The notes under the pieces are model-generated. The model saw nothing but the letters and a program-made list of their open reading frames with translations. It ran no database searches and was not told the DNA's origin. Made by a program: the position numbers and the translations under genes. Shown here piece by piece: positions 2,168-9,533 of a DNA stretch of 64,000 nucleotides. Every line of letters starts with the position of its first letter. Positions within the stretch are counted from its first letter, which is position 1. This DNA is from an uncultured Polaribacter sp. (lineage in GTDB: Bacteria > Bacteroidota > Bacteroidia > Flavobacteriales > Flavobacteriaceae), in NCBI RefSeq assembly GCF_947497125.1, contig NZ_CANMFI010000001.1:124001-188000 (forward strand), written 5' to 3'.

Positions 2168-3289
2168 ATGTCAACTTTTTCTTCATTAGGTATTCAAACA
2201 GATTATATAAAAGCACTTCAAGAATTAGGGATTACAAAACCCTCTGAAATTCAAGAAAAAGCAATTCCTATTTTAATAAATTCGAAAACAGATTTTATTG
2301 GTTTGGCGCAAACTGGTACTGGTAAAACAGCCGCTTTTGGATTGCCTGTTTTACATCATATAGATGCTAGTTCTAACAACATTCAAACCTTAATTTTATC
2401 TCCTACAAGAGAGTTGGTTCAGCAAATAAAAAAGCAATTATTTAAGTTTACTAAATTTAGTAATGATAAAATTTTTGTTGAAGCTGTTTTTGGTGGCGAA
2501 AAGATAGATCGACAAATGAATAATCTAAAAAGAACGACTCACGTAGTTGTGGCAACACCAGGTAGATTAATCGATTTAATAGAAAGAGGTAGCATTGATA
2601 TTAGTCACGTTAAAACAGTTGTTTTAGATGAAGCTGATGAAATGCTAAGCATGGGTTTTAAGCAAGATTTAAATAGAATTTTAAAATTTACAACCAAATT
2701 AGATAGAAAAACATGGTTGTTTTCTGCCACAATGCCAGAAGAAATTAAGCGAATTGTTAAAACGTATATGGATGCGAATGCACCAAGAGTAGAAATTAAT
2801 AGAAGTGCTTTGGTAAATGCAAATATTCGTCATCATTTTGTTAAAACAACTCTAAAAGAAAAACCTTTAGATATTATTTCTTTTCTAGAAAAAAGACAAG
2901 ATCAAAGAGGTATTATTTTCTGTAGAACAAAAGCAGGAGCTCAAAATTTAGCAGCTTTACTAATAGAAGAAGGCTTTTCTGCGGCCGCATTAGAAGGAGA
3001 TATGCAGCAAAAAGAACGCGATAAAGTAATGAGAGCCTTTAAAAAAGAAAATATTCAGTACTTAGTTTCGACAGATGTTTCTGCTCGTGGTATTGATGTT
3101 AGTGGATTAGAGTTTGTAATACATCATCAATTACCAGAACAATTAGAATACTATACACATAGAAGTGGTAGAACAGCAAGAGCAGGTAAAACCGGAGTTT
3201 CAATAGCTTTTATACTGCCATCAGAATTAGAGAGAATTCATCAAATTCAGAAAGAATTAAATATTAAATTCTCTGAAGTTACTGTATAA
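2168..3289 (+). CDS. DEAD-box ATP-dependent RNA helicase
   Basis: A 373-residue minimal DEAD-box helicase. All core motifs are visible: Q motif near residues 22-30, Walker A AQTGTGKT (47-54), PTRELV, TPGRLID, DEAD (154-157), SAT (186-188), and in the second RecA domain the FCRTK, STDVSARGID and HRSGRTARAG motifs. It lacks the long basic C-terminal tail of RhlE and the RNA-binding domain of DbpA, ending about 15 residues after motif VI, so it is near the lower length limit of the family. It probably remodels structured RNA during ribosome assembly or mRNA turnover. The next gene starts on the base after its stop. Confidence 0.93.
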   Translation: MSTFSSLGIQTDYIKALQELGITKPSEIQEKAIPILINSKTDFIGLAQTGTGKTAAFGLPVLHHIDASSNNIQTLILSPTRELVQQIKKQLFKFTKFSNDKIFVEAVFGGEKIDRQMNNLKRTTHVVVATPGRLIDLIERGSIDISHVKTVVLDEADEMLSMGFKQDLNRILKFTTKLDRKTWLFSATMPEEIKRIVKTYMDANAPRVEINRSALVNANIRHHFVKTTLKEKPLDIISFLEKRQDQRGIIFCRTKAGAQNLAALLIEEGFSAAALEGDMQQKERDKVMRAFKKENIQYLVSTDVSARGIDVSGLEFVIHHQLPEQLEYYTHRSGRTARAGKTGVSIAFILPSELERIHQIQKELNIKFSEVTV

Positions 3290-3916
3290 ATGAATCTTAT
3301 CTATTTTTTAGACATATCAGGAACCTTTGCCTTTGCTATTAGTGGTGCCTTGGTGGCTTCTGATAAAAAGTTCGATTTATTTGGTGTAGCAATAATTGCT
3401 TTTGTTACCGCCGTTGGTGGTGGTATGCTTCGAGATATCTTAATTGATGCACATCCAATCAATTGGATTGGAGATCTTAATTATTTATGGACTATCTTTT
3501 TAGCAGTGATTCTAACTTTTTTGTTTAAAAGTAAAATAGCACCTTTAAGTAAAACACTTTTTTTGTTTGATACCATTGGTTTAGGTGTTTTTACGTTACT
3601 GGGTTTGCAAAAAGGATTGTCTTTTAATTTGCATCCTATCATTGCTTTGATAATGGGAATGATTTCTGCTGTTTTTGGCGGCGTTTTAAGAGATGTGCTA
3701 ACAAATAAAGTACCTTTAATTTTCGAAAAAGAAATTTATGCCTCTGCTTGTTTAGCCGGTGGTTTTACTTATTTAATTTTAAGTTATTTTAAACTGTCAG
3801 AAAATTTAATTTTTATTGTTTCTGCAACTATTATTGTTGTTATAAGAGTTATTGCTGTAAAATTTCAACTACAGTTACCAAAAATTAAAGACGATTTATT
3901 TACTAAAACGAAATAA
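3290..3916 (+). CDS. Trimeric intracellular cation channel (TRIC/UPF0126) family protein
   Basis: A 208-residue inner-membrane protein with six or seven hydrophobic segments. Two internally repeated halves each carry the family signature: GGGMLRDIL near residue 44 and GGVLRDVLT near residue 125. This duplicated glycine-rich motif defines the prokaryotic TRIC (UPF0126, YadS-like) channels, which form trimers and conduct monovalent cations. The gene abuts the helicase (stop then ATG with no spacing) and is abutted by the MaoC gene, so expression is coupled, though no shared function is evident. Confidence 0.9.
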   Translation: MNLIYFLDISGTFAFAISGALVASDKKFDLFGVAIIAFVTAVGGGMLRDILIDAHPINWIGDLNYLWTIFLAVILTFLFKSKIAPLSKTLFLFDTIGLGVFTLLGLQKGLSFNLHPIIALIMGMISAVFGGVLRDVLTNKVPLIFEKEIYASACLAGGFTYLILSYFKLSENLIFIVSATIIVVIRVIAVKFQLQLPKIKDDLFTKTK

Positions 3917-4381
3917 ATGAGTAGTGTAATATTTAATAATTTTGAAGATTTTAAACAGTGTAAAGGGCAACAGTTACCTTTAGGGGAATGGTTTCTTATA
4001 ACACAAGAAATGATCAACAATTTTGCAAATGCTACTTTAGATAAACAGTGGATTCATGTTGATGAAAAAAGAGCTTTAAAAGAGAGTCCGTTTAAAAGTA
4101 CAATAGCACATGGTTTTATGTCTGTTGCTATGATTTCTAAATTATTAGGAGAAATTTTTACTATTAAAAGCTTAAAAATTGGCTTAAATTATGGTTTAAA
4201 CAAAGTTCGTTTTCCTAATCCGGTACCCGTTAACAGTCAGTTAAGAATGATTGCTAGTGTAATTGATGTTACAGAGATTAATAACAACGGTATTAGGGTT
4301 ACTTTTTCTTGTATAGTAGCGATAAAAGGGCAAGAGAAACCTGCTTGTGCTGCAGAGTTTATTGCAGCCTTTTTTGAATAA
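3917..4381 (+). CDS. MaoC family dehydratase (R-specific enoyl-CoA hydratase-like)
   Basis: A 154-residue hotdog protein of the MaoC-like type. The motif FANATLDKQWIHVD (residues 35-48) carries the Asp and His used as the hydratase dyad in R-specific enoyl-CoA hydratases, followed by the S-x-IAHGFMSVAM segment. The reaction is hydration of trans-2-enoyl-CoA to (R)-3-hydroxyacyl-CoA or the reverse; the actual chain length is unknown. It is the last gene of the operon starting at 1070 and is convergent with the TolC gene, 24 bp away, with no obvious terminator hairpin between them. Confidence 0.88.
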   Translation: MSSVIFNNFEDFKQCKGQQLPLGEWFLITQEMINNFANATLDKQWIHVDEKRALKESPFKSTIAHGFMSVAMISKLLGEIFTIKSLKIGLNYGLNKVRFPNPVPVNSQLRMIASVIDVTEINNNGIRVTFSCIVAIKGQEKPACAAEFIAAFFE

Positions 4382-4405
4382 AATAGATTGATAAAGTAGC
4401 CTTTC

Positions 4406-5803
4406 TTAGTCTGTTAAATTGATGACAGCAACCTTAAATAAATTAGCTTTAGTTTTAAAGAATGAGTTTTCTAAATCGATCGCTTTTAGTTTCGCTTCAA
4501 TTAATTTTACTTCTCGATAGTTTACAAGAAATAGAGAGCTTTCTCCTAAAAAAAACTTACGATCTTCTGCATTAAGTAAGGTGTGGTAATCTTTTACAAT
4601 ACTGCTAGTTAGGTTGTTTTGGTATCGAAAAGAATTGAGTTCTTGTTGTATTGCGTTTACTTTGTTTTTTATTGTAATTTTTGCAATCTCATTTTCTAAT
4701 TTTTGGTCTTGTAGTTTTATGTTTGCTAACTTTAAATCTCCTCTTTCTTTTCTTAAAAATATAGGTACTTTAAAGTTAATTCTAGCTTTATAATCTTGAT
4801 TATTAAAAGAGTTTATTTGGTTTCTATTTTCAGTTAAAAAATTATATTCTACATCTAATTTAGGTAATAAATTATTTAGCTTTAATTTTCTATCAATGTT
4901 TAAACCATTAATTTTAAAGTTTAAAGATCTTATTTTTGGGTGATTATTAATGTCAAAATTTTCATCGTTAAACAATGCGATATTAAATGTTACATCTACA
5001 TTATTTATAGTGTTTGTATCGGGAATAATATTTTCTTGTAGCTCTACAGGTGTATTATTGTTTAGCCATAAAAAATTAGACAATTCTAAAGAAGATTTTA
5101 TCAGTTTTATTCTTGCTTTTTCGAAGTTTAACTTTCTTGTATTTAATGTAATTTTAGCTTCTGTAGTATCTATTGCCGGTTTTTGACCTTCAAAAAAAGC
5201 TCTCTTTGTTGCTTTAAATCGTGTATCTGCATTTATTAAAAAACTTTCATATACTTTTTTCTCGTTGTAAGTTTTAAGCCAGTTAAAGTAGGTTGTAGCA
5301 GCATTGTATAAAATTTCATTTACCAATATTTGTTGGTCTTCTTTTGCCTGATTTAAGAATAGCTTGGCTTGTTTTAAAGAAGCCATTCTTTTATTAATTA
5401 AAAGACCATTTAATAAAGAAGCAGAAATACCTGCACTATACAAACCATCATTTGGGGTATTTAGATCGTTACTTAAAAATTGACCACTATTATTTTCAAA
5501 ATTAGCTTTCAACTCTAATCCGTAATACGTTGGTATTTTAAAAGTAGAATTTAATTCTGTGTAATAGTTTTTGTCTTTAAATTGTTTTTTATCAAAATCA
5601 ACTTCTATTTTTGGATCAAAAGCACCTCTAGATTTTAAAAGTTTTGCTTCACTTTCATTAATAATAAGGTTTGCCTGTTTTACAATTGGATGGTAATTTT
5701 TTACATACCCTAAGTACTCAGACAATGTCATTACAGAAGTAACATTTTGAGATAGAATACACGTTGTAAAAAAGAATAAAAATACTGTTATAGATGCTTT
5801 CAT
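4406..5803 (-). CDS. TolC family outer-membrane efflux protein
   Basis: A 465-residue outer-membrane factor with an N-terminal signal peptide (hydrophobic stretch to about residue 18, ending CILSQ) and two OEP repeats of long amphipathic helices. Typical landmarks are LSEYLGYVKNYHPIVKQA at the start of the mature chain, the paired phrases ESEAKLLKSRGAFDP and QAKLFLNQAKEDQ, and the second repeat near residues 340-440. It would form the trimeric exit duct for the adjacent HlyD and ABC proteins. It is the last gene of a leftward four-gene unit (TetR, ABC, HlyD, TolC), 29 bp downstream of the HlyD gene. Confidence 0.93.
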   Translation of the reverse strand: MKASITVFLFFFTTCILSQNVTSVMTLSEYLGYVKNYHPIVKQANLIINESEAKLLKSRGAFDPKIEVDFDKKQFKDKNYYTELNSTFKIPTYYGLELKANFENNSGQFLSNDLNTPNDGLYSAGISASLLNGLLINKRMASLKQAKLFLNQAKEDQQILVNEILYNAATTYFNWLKTYNEKKVYESFLINADTRFKATKRAFFEGQKPAIDTTEAKITLNTRKLNFEKARIKLIKSSLELSNFLWLNNNTPVELQENIIPDTNTINNVDVTFNIALFNDENFDINNHPKIRSLNFKINGLNIDRKLKLNNLLPKLDVEYNFLTENRNQINSFNNQDYKARINFKVPIFLRKERGDLKLANIKLQDQKLENEIAKITIKNKVNAIQQELNSFRYQNNLTSSIVKDYHTLLNAEDRKFFLGESSLFLVNYREVKLIEAKLKAIDLENSFFKTKANLFKVAVINLTD

Positions 5804-5832: not shown

Positions 5833-7188
5833 TTATGATTTCTTTTTTTTGTCTTTTTTGTCTGTTTCTGGTTGATAGTAATTAGGAGGGAAACTATTTA
5901 ATTGTCTCCAAAGTTCAAACCAAATAGGTACATCTTCTAGTAATGCAATTGTTTTAGCGCCAGACCCAACTCTAATGGCTTCTGGCCAGGTATGATCTTT
6001 TTCATCTGGGGCAAGTAACACTCTATATTTTCCGTTTTCACTAATAAAACGTTCAATGGCAACTACTTCTGCACCATAGGTACCGTAAGAAACATTTGGC
6101 CAACCAGAAAATACAATAGCAGGCCAACCATCAAATTGCACACGTACTTTTTCTCCGATATGAAGTAGTGGTAAATCTATAGGTCTTACAAAAGTTTCTA
6201 CAGCCAAATCATAACTTGCGGGCATTATACCAACCAAATCATCACCTTCTTTAAAAGTACCTCCAATACCGCCTTTAACAGCTTTATTTATGTAACCATC
6301 ATGTGGTGCCGTTATGTATAATAAACTGTTTCTAATTTTGTAGTTGCTGTTGCTATTTTCTAGTTTAGATACCTGTACTTCTGCATCAAAACCACTAGAC
6401 ATTGCAGTAGACATATCACTCTGTGCTTTAGAGATTTTATTTGTATACTCTGCTTTAATTCTTGTAATTTCTATTTTTGCATTTAAGATGTTATTCTTAC
6501 TTTCTAATAGTTTATTTTCTTTATTGATTAATTCGGCTTGCGTTTTTTGTAGTTTTAAATTCTTTTCTTCTACGTCTTTCTTTGCAGCAATGCCTTCTTT
6601 TTCTAAAGTTTCTGCTCTGGTAAATTGCCTTTTTGCAATTTTAATATTTGTTTTTGCAGCTTCAAATTCAATACTATCGCTTTGTACTTTTAATTTAGAT
6701 TGTATCAATTTATTTTCTGCCATTTCTAACTTAAAACCTTGTTCATTTTTAAGCGAAGAAATTTGTCTTTGCAGTGCACTTACTTTTTCTTTATAGGCAC
6801 CTACAGAAGAAATTTTTGCATTAATTTGTTGATTGGTTCTTTCAATAAGTCTACTGTCAAAATATTCGCTTTTTACTTCGGATATTCTAAGGATAGTATC
6901 ACCTTTTTTTACAAAATTACCTTCCCTAACAAACCATTGTTCTATTCTGCCCGGAATTTGTGATTGTATTGTTTGTGGTCTCTGTCCTGGTGTTAAAGTT
7001 GTAACCAATCCGTTACCAGAGATGTTTTGTGTCCAAGGTAAAAAGAGAGCAATAAAACCTACAATGGCAAAAACTAAAAGAAACTTATTTAAAGCTTTGT
7101 AATAGTCTTTGTTAAAAATAGTTTTACCTGATTTGTATTGCTGTATATCAAATGATTTGTGTAGTTGGTTTTTAGAGATATTTAACAT
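5833..7188 (-). CDS. HlyD family periplasmic adaptor of an ABC exporter
   Basis: A 451-residue membrane fusion protein: cytosolic N terminus, one membrane helix at about residues 33-50, a lipoyl half-motif around PGRIEQWFVREGNFVKKGDTIL, a long alpha-hairpin of charged heptads from about 100 to 290, a second lipoyl half-motif (ITAPHDGYINKAVKGGIGGTF) and a C-terminal beta domain ending in a very lysine-rich tail. It should connect the ABC permease to TolC, as in type I-like export. It is only 6 bp after the ABC gene. The substrate is not indicated; no bacteriocin-type precursor or C39 peptidase gene is seen nearby. Confidence 0.92.
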   Translation of the reverse strand: MLNISKNQLHKSFDIQQYKSGKTIFNKDYYKALNKFLLVFAIVGFIALFLPWTQNISGNGLVTTLTPGQRPQTIQSQIPGRIEQWFVREGNFVKKGDTILRISEVKSEYFDSRLIERTNQQINAKISSVGAYKEKVSALQRQISSLKNEQGFKLEMAENKLIQSKLKVQSDSIEFEAAKTNIKIAKRQFTRAETLEKEGIAAKKDVEEKNLKLQKTQAELINKENKLLESKNNILNAKIEITRIKAEYTNKISKAQSDMSTAMSSGFDAEVQVSKLENSNSNYKIRNSLLYITAPHDGYINKAVKGGIGGTFKEGDDLVGIMPASYDLAVETFVRPIDLPLLHIGEKVRVQFDGWPAIVFSGWPNVSYGTYGAEVVAIERFISENGKYRVLLAPDEKDHTWPEAIRVGSGAKTIALLEDVPIWFELWRQLNSFPPNYYQPETDKKDKKKKS

Positions 7189-7194
7189 AACAAA

Positions 7195-8859
7195 TTATTT
7201 TATAGATTTAACTTCACCTTTTTCTAAGGTAATTATTTGACCGCATTGGGTGCTCCAACTTTTTTTACTACTAACAACAATTAAAGACCACGGTCTATTA
7301 AAATCTGTCAAATAGTTGATAATTCTTTCAGATTCTTCAACATTAAATTGATCTAATGGATCTTCTAAAATCATTACTTTTGGCTGTTTTATAATTGCTC
7401 TTGCAAGAAGGATTTTTTTAGCAATTGTAAAAGACATTTGTTTTCCCTCTGGATATAAAACAGTTTCAAGACCATTTGGTTGTTCTTTTAAAAATTGTGT
7501 TAAACCAACAATATCAAGTGCTTCATACATAATTGTATCTGCAATTTTATGATTGCCAAAAACTAAATTTTCTTTTATAGTACCTTCAAAAGGAGTTTCA
7601 TCTGCTAAAGATAGTCCTAGTTGAGATCTGTAGTGGTTTAATTGCAAGCTATTTAATGATAAATTATTTACGTAAATATTACCACTTGTAGGTTCTACAA
7701 TACCAGATATTAAACGTAATAAACTAGATTTTCCTGAACCACTTTCTCCAATTACTAAAATTCTACTTTTAGGTTCTAATTTAAGTGATATGTTTTCTAA
7801 AATGTGTTTTTTTCTATTTTCTACTCGGTAAGATGCTTCATCTAATTCGATAGTTAATCCCTCTTTAAATACTGGCATTTCTCCTTCTTGAGGTTCTAGC
7901 TCTTTGTCAACAACCTGACCAATTTTTTCAATTGATGTTAGTACATCGTAAAAAGATTCTAAGCCAATAATTAATTTTTCTACAGACTGAATAACTAAAA
8001 GAATAATGATTTCTGCAGCAACAAACTGACCAATATTCATTTCTTGATTTAAAACCAATGCACCCCCAATAAGAAGTAAGCTAGCAGTTACAATTACTTT
8101 AAAACCAATCATTTGGCTAAATTGTAGTATAAGTATTTTAAAGTGATTTTCTCTAGCTTTTAAGTATTTATCTACTAAATAATCGTTTTTAGTTAATGCC
8201 AAGTTGGTGTTTCCAGAAAGTTTAAAACTAACAACAGTTCTTGCTATTTCTTGAATCCAATGCGCTACTTTATATTTAATTTTAGACTCAGCTAAACTTG
8301 TTTCTAGTCCTTTTTGGGCGGTGAATTTAAAAACTATATATATTAATAGTAAAAGTAAAATTCCAAAAATAATAAAAAATGGGTGGTAAAAAGACAAGAG
8401 TATTAGCGCAAAAATAATTTGCAATAGTGCTGTTGGTACATCAATTAAAATTTTAGACAATCCTTTCTGTATGGTTAAAGTATCAAAAAAACGATTGGCT
8501 AATTCTGGTGGATACACATTTCTAAGCTGATTCATTTTTATTTTAGGAAATCGATAGCTTAACTCAAAAGAAGACCTTGTAAATATTCTTTGTTGTATGG
8601 TTTCTATAATTCTTAATTGCATTAATTGTAACAAGCCAGAAAAAATTACACCCATTGTTACTACAATCACTAAAACTACCCATGAAGTAGAAATTTGTGC
8701 ACCTTGTATTAGGTTAATAATTGCTTGTATACCTAACGGTAATGAAAGTGCAACTACACCACCAAAAATGGCATAATAAAATATCTGAAAAATATCTTTT
8801 TTTTCAAGTTTTACTAAACCAACAAAACGTTGCCAAGGAGTTAATTGTTTATTTTTCAT
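7195..8859 (-). CDS. ABC exporter: permease fused to a degenerate ATP-binding domain
   Basis: A 554-residue half transporter: six membrane helices in residues 25-300 and a nucleotide-binding domain at about 335-554. Walker A is intact (GESGSGKSS, 371-379). The other ATPase motifs are not: the Q-loop position reads SLAD (417-420) with no Gln, the LSGGQ signature is replaced by MSFTI (475-479), Walker B reads MILED (496-500) with Asp and Glu exchanged, and the H-switch position reads VVSSKK (528-533) with no His. There is no N-terminal C39 peptidase. The gene is in frame and intact, flanked by HlyD (6 bp) and TetR (2 bp), so the change looks like a family trait and not decay; that is inference. 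Confidence 0.9.
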   Translation of the reverse strand: MKNKQLTPWQRFVGLVKLEKKDIFQIFYYAIFGGVVALSLPLGIQAIINLIQGAQISTSWVVLVIVVTMGVIFSGLLQLMQLRIIETIQQRIFTRSSFELSYRFPKIKMNQLRNVYPPELANRFFDTLTIQKGLSKILIDVPTALLQIIFALILLSFYHPFFIIFGILLLLLIYIVFKFTAQKGLETSLAESKIKYKVAHWIQEIARTVVSFKLSGNTNLALTKNDYLVDKYLKARENHFKILILQFSQMIGFKVIVTASLLLIGGALVLNQEMNIGQFVAAEIIILLVIQSVEKLIIGLESFYDVLTSIEKIGQVVDKELEPQEGEMPVFKEGLTIELDEASYRVENRKKHILENISLKLEPKSRILVIGESGSGKSSLLRLISGIVEPTSGNIYVNNLSLNSLQLNHYRSQLGLSLADETPFEGTIKENLVFGNHKIADTIMYEALDIVGLTQFLKEQPNGLETVLYPEGKQMSFTIAKKILLARAIIKQPKVMILEDPLDQFNVEESERIINYLTDFNRPWSLIVVSSKKSWSTQCGQIITLEKGEVKSIK

Positions 8860-8861
8860 AT

Positions 8862-9533
8862 TTATTTGATAGTATTTTTAACTAAATGAATAAAAAAACT
8901 AGTAGGTGTTTTTTCTTTGTCACAATTAGTAATTGAAGGAAAATGTTCTGTAAGGTAGTGTTGGTGTAGGCCACCTTCAATAATGCTACTTGCTAAACTT
9001 AATGCAAAAGGATACTCTTTTTTTACTCCTAAAATCATTTCACTAATACGTGTAATAATTCTTTTATAAATTTCAAAATACCCTTCTTTATTTTCGGTAT
9101 CTACAGCTTTTGTTAAAAATGATTTAGAACTTTCTTTAACAATTATTTTATATAAAACTGTTTCGTTAATATGAGAATAATTACTGTCTTCTATAACCGT
9201 TCTGGTTACTATATCTATTGCTTTGTCTAGTTTTTCATTAGCGTCAGAAATACTAAATGTTTCTATTACTAGTTGGTATTCTAGCCATGCCCAATACCAA
9301 GAGGTTAAATAAAGAAGTAATTTGTGTTTACTTTCAAAGTACCTGTAAATAGAACTTTCATTAGAATTAATTTTTGCTCCTAATTTCTTAAAAGTAAAAC
9401 TTTCAAAACCTATTTCTTCTATTAGAGAAATAGCATGTTCTATAATTCTTTTTCCTAATTCTGAAGTTTCAGGATCTTTGATAAATATTTTATCAGGTAC
9501 AGATATTTTTAATACAGATAATAAATTTTTCAT
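8862..9533 (-). CDS. TetR/AcrR family transcriptional regulator
   Basis: A 223-residue regulator. Residues 28-75 form the TetR DNA-binding domain: RIIEHAISLIEEIGFESFTF, then KKLGAKINSNESSIYRYFESKHKLL, the usual helix-turn-helix with the YRYF recognition-helix ending. The C-terminal ligand domain is helical and unlike a named subgroup. It is the first gene of the leftward exporter operon, with its stop 2 bp before the ABC start, so it probably represses its own operon and responds to the transported compound or to membrane stress (inference from gene order). Its 5' region (9534-9655) is very AT-rich and shared with the divergent cold-shock gene. Confidence 0.9.
   Translation of the reverse strand: MKNLLSVLKISVPDKIFIKDPETSELGKRIIEHAISLIEEIGFESFTFKKLGAKINSNESSIYRYFESKHKLLLYLTSWYWAWLEYQLVIETFSISDANEKLDKAIDIVTRTVIEDSNYSHINETVLYKIIVKESSKSFLTKAVDTENKEGYFEIYKRIITRISEMILGVKKEYPFALSLASSIIEGGLHQHYLTEHFPSITNCDKEKTPTSFFIHLVKNTIK

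Follow-up and report, generated by a model that had tools for sequence, protein, structure and literature searches.

Hydrolysis of ATP is the defining trait of ABC exporters, and CFTR/ABCC7 is an ABC exporter that has turned into something other than an ATP-driven pump. A C39 or C39-like N-terminal domain is common in the ABC exporters of type I secretion and is lacking in those of the PrtD type. According to an excerpt of PMC7756269, an ABC exporter site is composed of Walker A, Walker B, the Q-loop and the H-loop of one half and the signature of the other half, the known asymmetric exporters retain one complete site, and CFTR retains one hydrolytic site. SbmA/BacA (SLiPT) is described in an excerpt of PMC13316013 as having an ABC-exporter-type transmembrane domain (TMD) that is proton-driven, its nucleotide-binding domain (NBD) and coupling helices having been lost in evolution.

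In the window, by which we mean the whole 64,000-nucleotide stretch of Polaribacter DNA that was analysed, a 554-aa ABC half-exporter homologue with a type IV ABC exporter fold and a pseudo-NBD is encoded at 7195..8859 on the minus strand, the strand of all features given below. Its reading frame is intact and, as the earlier note had described, the uninterrupted gene lies in a TetR-ABC-HlyD-TolC operon, together with genes for a TetR-type regulator (223 aa, 8862..9533), an HlyD-type periplasmic adaptor (451 aa, 5833..7188) and a TolC-like outer-membrane efflux protein (OEP, 465 aa, 4406..5803). Among 80 diverse loci, hlyD adjoins the family gene at 77 and tolC at 76, three of the exceptions being contig ends, and of the 147 loci that were clustered, 90 have a TetR homologue. 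Among named sequences, those that match the window protein most closely over its full length come from Polaribacter, with at most 87% identity. Searches of the open-access literature showed no description of its family.

A structure prediction for the protein as a monomer returned the full type IV exporter fold (AF2 with 49 sequences, pLDDT 80.4, pTM 0.58). Over the full length, the model matched, among others, TmrAB (6rai_B, Z 28.6, rmsd 3.4, 540 aligned residues), HlyB (8dck_B, Z 28.3, rmsd 3.5, 546 aligned) and PrtD (5l22_B, Z 27.1, rmsd 3.8, 526 aligned), and the NBD alone matched the ComA NBD (3vx4_A, Z 27.6, rmsd 1.8, 221 aligned), while a query with only the TMD gave weak matches to solved structures. 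Judged from this model, the exporter fold is retained and the predicted ATPase chemistry is lost. The best NCBIfam model was TIGR03375 (type I secretion, LssB), which scored 194.6 bits, below its cut-off of 693.1; the match begins at model position 136, and the window protein does not have the region that precedes it. A C39-type N-terminal domain is absent from the window protein.

The protein is divided into a conserved TMD (residues 1-325, 7885..8859), which is the sole part retained in nine relatives, and a degenerate NBD (residues 331-554, 7198..7869). In the NBD, Walker A is standard (GESGSGKSS, residues 371-379, 7723..7749). In the Q-loop region (SLADETPF, residues 417-424, 7588..7611), Ala419 replaces Gln; MSFTI stands at the position of the LSGGQ signature (residues 475-479, 7423..7437); Walker B reads VMILED (residues 495-500, 7360..7377), with Glu499-Asp500 in place of Asp-Glu; and in the H-loop region (LIVVSSKKSW, residues 526-535, 7255..7284), Ser531 replaces His. 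Phmmer alignments to solved exporters, among the alignments shown, run ungapped through the signature, Walker B and the H-loop, ruling out a misaligned signature region and bearing out the claim of the earlier note that four of five catalytic motifs are changed and Walker A alone is standard. Its expectation that ordinary ATP hydrolysis would be beyond a homodimer also appears right. Around the former H-loop, Trp524, Trp535 and Cys539 are invariant in 49 close sequences and perhaps mark a new interface.

Sampling 397 Flavobacteriaceae genomes turned up an orthologue (E <= 1e-60) in 232, with one match per genome among the matches listed, and 67 of 70 named-genome loci belong to the family of the window protein. 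Profile searches (E <= 1e-70) found a match in 184 of 395 genomes sampled from the class and in 97 of 395 sampled from the phylum; partial matches in three genomes (G983, G926, G1087) are contig ends and were excluded. Q-loop position 419 is never Gln in a set of 93 close sequences that contains the window protein, and in 13 of them the Walker A Lys is replaced by Arg. Of 76 diverse NBD-bearing members, none has signature Gly477 or Gln479, five have the Q-loop Gln, three His531, 17 Walker B Asp499 and 11 Glu500; the Walker A Lys is found in at most 66, an upper bound given that L196 and L197 have a lysine without a P-loop. Walker A is also lost in L159, L204, L206 and L256. The A-loop Tyr and Walker A are mostly retained, Walker B is often two acidic residues in swapped order, and the replacement residues at the signature, H-loop and Walker B differ widely among members. 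Seven outer relatives (L183-L189) all retain the Lys, Asp, Glu and His; the signature Gln is present in one of them and the Q-loop Gln in none. Six of the 80 loci (L193, L195, L207, L211, L228, L229), truncated or of doubtful frame, did not enter the alignment, the phylogeny or the tally of motifs. On this alignment, the loss of catalytic motifs is fixed family-wide, and the check on close homologues thus shows changes that are not particular to one genome. In L196 (4365-6395 of that locus), Pfam finds neither ABC_membrane nor ABC_tran at E <= 0.001, and the tetR-abc-hlyD-tolC operon is still present.

The two domains differ in how they are constrained. On average, 91 orthologues are 84% identical to the window protein over the TMD and 62% over the NBD, and in none of them is the NBD the more conserved half; for the canonical paralogue L002 of the same genome, the NBD is the more conserved half in 18 of 19 orthologues, self excluded. 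The median dN/dS (NG86) over 22 close pairs, which share sequences and are not independent, is 0.042 for the TMD and 0.098 for the NBD, with the NBD higher in 21. Read from these rates, the NBD is released from catalytic constraint yet remains under purifying selection. The proposal that selection keeps the gene is borne out by a dN/dS well below 1 and by the spread of its orthologues. Polar and charged residues of TM6 and of TM3-TM5 are conserved in the TMD. The TM6 family motif IGQFVAAEIIILLVIQSVEKLI (7969..8034), with Glu283, Glu294 and Lys295, is absent from four canonical exporters of the window genome and is retained in the TMD-only relatives too, with Asp for Glu294 in two of nine. Its glutamates are also present in the relatives with Asp, Glu and His intact and are thus no specific sign of a proton mechanism, and their use as a unique marker of proton carriers was dropped. 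We propose Glu283 in TM6 and Glu294-Lys295 as candidates for ion coupling.

At nine of the 80 loci (L150-L155 and L190-L192, in genomes G749, G631, G552, G742, G643, G472, G1064, G1080 and G1101), the gene encodes the TMD alone, with 332-339 aa. The hlyD gene overlaps the stop codon in seven of these and starts within 67 bp downstream in the other two, and tolC follows. Five of the proteins were scanned; each gave an ABC_membrane match that exceeded the model's cut-off, and none matched an NBD model. Within the sequence retrieved around the genes (about 5-6 kb on each side), no NBD-like frame was found at eight of the nine loci; L150 has a single NBD-like gene nearby, which sits in another gene pair. 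Coupling helix 2 of the TMD-only relatives is diverged from that of the NBD-bearing members; in the window protein it is not. TM6 of the TMD-only proteins retains GQFVAAE or GQFVASE. For most pairs of TMD-only genes synonymous change is saturated; the seven computable pairs have a dN/dS of 0.05-0.24. In a FastTree LG phylogeny of the TMD, these members form one clade (support 0.999) that is sister to L161, a full-length degenerate protein (0.995), indicating that the domain loss came after the degeneration. By this tree, the ancestor from which the TMD-only lineage lost its NBD was itself degenerate, and the loss took place once in the sample.

The deeper branches are weakly supported (0.207-0.882) and place two degenerate groups, L201/L202 and L208/L209/L215, outside the relatives with Asp, Glu and His intact. 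The motifs may thus have been lost repeatedly, or the tree may be misrooted, and a neat stepwise order of losses finds no support in these branches. In genus g254, the full-length degenerate L160 and the TMD-only L153, L154 and L191 come from different species, as do the full-length degenerate L194 and the TMD-only L155 and L190 in genus g252, and this mix of full-length and TMD-only genes suggests replacement or transfer. Many relatives of 692-832 aa have an N-terminal extension (L161-L166, L183-L187, L189, L208-L210, L212-L215); in the four that were scanned (L161, L184, L187 and L208; 702-832 aa), the extension was unrecognised by Pfam. The extension may be a degenerate form of the N-terminal domain of type I secretion exporters, lost in the window's lineage.

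Thirteen of the 80 loci hold genes linked to inorganic carbon, namely SbtA (Sbt_1), SulP, a beta-carbonic anhydrase (CA) and DabAB; at one of the 13, L224, the linked gene is a DUF6671 relative alone, which elsewhere accompanies SbtA or Dab. Same-strand clusters include SulP-CA-abc-hlyD-tolC (L167, L169, L184), SulP-abc-hlyD-tolC (L216), SbtA-tetR-abc-hlyD-tolC (L222), SbtA-abc-hlyD-tolC (L255) and abc-hlyD-tolC-SbtA (L227). By genome-wide positions, SbtA, SulP or CA lies within 10 kb of the family gene at no fewer than 14 of the 80 loci (three of which belong to family f4 and two to f8), against 1.59 expected at random under a null model that treats the genomes as independent. Because the 10-kb limit and the inorganic-carbon families had been chosen after the first loci were seen, SbtA was retested class-wide on 53 further genomes with both genes; it lies within 10 kb in eight (G881, G1100, G816, G931, G941, G1052, G1088 and G847, two of them from f58), against 0.35 expected (P 2.6e-9, which assumes independent genomes, as these not fully are). 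The 14 and the eight loci were picked by eye from position lists, and one SbtA match (G1050) is a 68-residue fragment. All eight proteins of the retest are without the signature and the H-loop His, and their gene orders were read. Furthermore, the family is present in 81 of 95 SbtA-bearing genomes versus 103 of 300 without SbtA (Fisher test, relatedness not removed), a comparison that assumes both class samples to be the same draw.

None of the TMD-only loci is among the inorganic-carbon-linked ones. In the window genome, SbtA is on another contig, and the link to inorganic carbon is thus drawn from the relatives. From the family names, bicarbonate is the putative cargo of the Sbt_1 and SulP neighbours. 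The recurrence of bicarbonate transporters and carbonic anhydrase as neighbours suggests that the function of the transporter is connected with the balance of inorganic carbon or of pH. The DUF6671 protein recurs beside SbtA or DabA at seven loci (L250, L251, L254, L256, L257, L206, L160) and stands alone in L224; it is PF20376 in L160 and was recognised at the other loci by similarity to the L160 protein. In L251 and L256, an amidohydrolase gene, a dihydroorotase in L251, joins DUF6671 and SbtA/DabA. DUF6671 and SbtA/DabA form a possible inorganic-carbon gene module of their own.

The absence of catalytic motifs might be taken to mean a dying gene in the window strain, but the frame is intact, orthologues with the same losses are spread over the relatives and dN/dS is far under 1, which refutes decay in a single strain and leaves that reading practically no chance. 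The earlier note had offered two ways out, an unusual export engine, which stands as possible, or a canonical half-exporter encoded elsewhere that pairs with the window protein and supplies hydrolysis, which lacks support, as no complete site would be expected to result and none of the operon genes is such a partner. Known heterodimers do have one degenerate site (PMC7756269, as excerpted), and the window genome has at least four canonical homologues of half-exporter size (L002-L005). In a heterodimer, however, each subunit keeps the catalytic residues or the signature, and the window protein has lost both; with the Walker/H-loop side and the signature side defective in one subunit, a canonical partner would leave two incomplete sites, and the TMD-only members cannot form a site at all. 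A dedicated co-occurring partner, which the earlier note had suggested looking for, did not emerge either from the three homologues compared, L002, L003 and L005: among 41 genomes, L002 is present in 20, 13 with the family and seven without, and 12 genomes have the family alone, which is no pattern, and L003 (41) and L005 (40) are near universal and therefore uninformative. In 155 loci searched with canonical NBDs, the only second exporter gene by the family gene was at L195, where an MsbA-like gene (2961-4781 of that locus) lies directly upstream; the other NBD matches were long frames with weak scores in L189 (27.6 bits) and L226 (16.7 bits) and four short frames. We thus regard such a heterodimer as quite unlikely. 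It is very unlikely that another gene supplies the NBD for the TMD-only relatives, or perhaps for the whole family: TMD and NBD genes of the YddA family can be split (excerpt of PMC13316013), but of the nine TMD-only genes L150 alone has an NBD gene within about 5-6 kb, and that one belongs to another pair, and coupling helix 2 is diverged.

A rearranged site might still hydrolyse ATP by means of the shifted Glu-Asp and the replaced signature. The mostly retained Walker A and A-loop Tyr, the two acidic residues that Walker B often has in swapped order and the purifying selection on the NBD would fit an unusual but real ATPase, but it is improbable in view of the replacing residues, which vary at the signature, H-loop and Walker B, unlike a new active site, and of the four members in which Walker A is lost too. 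Alternatively, the ABC protein may no longer transport and may anchor or gate HlyD-TolC, as catalysis was lost while the co-operonic HlyD and TolC were conserved, and SUR1/SUR2 are ABC proteins that became regulators. The TMD is nevertheless very conserved, including the polar and charged residues of TM6 and TM3-TM5, which a mere anchor would not need, and we consider a scaffold unlikely. The drop-out of the NBD, the motif loss and the conservation of the TMD instead make a transporter without ATP hydrolysis the best reading. Against it, binding of ATP may yet play a part, given that most members keep the Walker A Lys and that the NBD evolves under constraint, and the TMD-only state is one clade and one evolutionary event in the sample.

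Taken as a whole, the family is thus probably the core of an HlyD-TolC trans-envelope transporter that does not hydrolyse ATP. In such a transporter, the window protein would be the inner-membrane part, an ABC-type TMD dimer joined by the HlyD adaptor and the TolC channel, in which the two TMDs would form the usual cavity and pass the substrate to HlyD-TolC. The pseudo-NBD may serve folding, assembly or gating, and most members, with Walker A retained, may still bind ATP as a ligand rather than a fuel, possibly as a gate. The drive would be an ion gradient, most likely of protons as in SbmA/BacA, SbmA being the nearest precedent, or the protein may be a downhill gated channel; as for the substrate, the neighbouring genes hint at inorganic carbon or pH. 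A more specific version is tentative and, in our judgement, rather doubtful as a package: an ATP-independent transporter or gated channel, derived from a type I secretion exporter, that, together with carbonic anhydrase and with bicarbonate uptake by SbtA, SulP or Dab, helps to balance inorganic carbon or pH in Bacteroidota, and that would be the first ABC exporter core to serve HlyD-TolC without an ATPase. These proteins are likely annotated as ABC transporter ATP-binding proteins, a label that would mislead. Their natural stages, partly degenerate, with a pseudo-NBD and without an NBD, allow a lone ABC transmembrane core to be tested, the family offers a test of how a primary transporter becomes a secondary one or a channel, and the gene neighbourhood makes a role in the inorganic-carbon handling of heterotrophic Bacteroidota directly testable.

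Among described systems, the degenerate sites of TM287/288, TmrAB, BmrCD and TAP likewise have a replaced signature and Asp for the Walker B Glu (excerpt of PMC7756269). Different from the window family, in which all the losses are in one gene, these heterodimeric exporters retain one complete site. CFTR was compared with the window family at the level of the superfamily. SbmA is not known to need HlyD-TolC. SbmA/BacA and, as predicted from its motifs, the window family are alike in an ABC-exporter TMD that works without ATP use; SbmA/BacA has no NBD, whereas the window protein has a pseudo-NBD, which is absent in nine relatives only. According to the excerpt of PMC13316013, SbmA imports peptides, has an extra TM0 and has lost its coupling helices; the operon of the window family is exporter-like, and coupling helix 2 of its TMD-only relatives is diverged in sequence. 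In SLiPT transporters a glutamate ladder carries the protons; Glu283, Glu294 and other residues are conserved in the window family and occur as well in its relatives with Asp, Glu and His intact. The type I secretion exporters (LssB/LapB, HlyB and PrtD) have in common with the window family the fold, the HlyD and TolC partners and the best profile match, TIGR03375. Different from these exporters, the members of the window family have lost the ATPase motifs or have no NBD.
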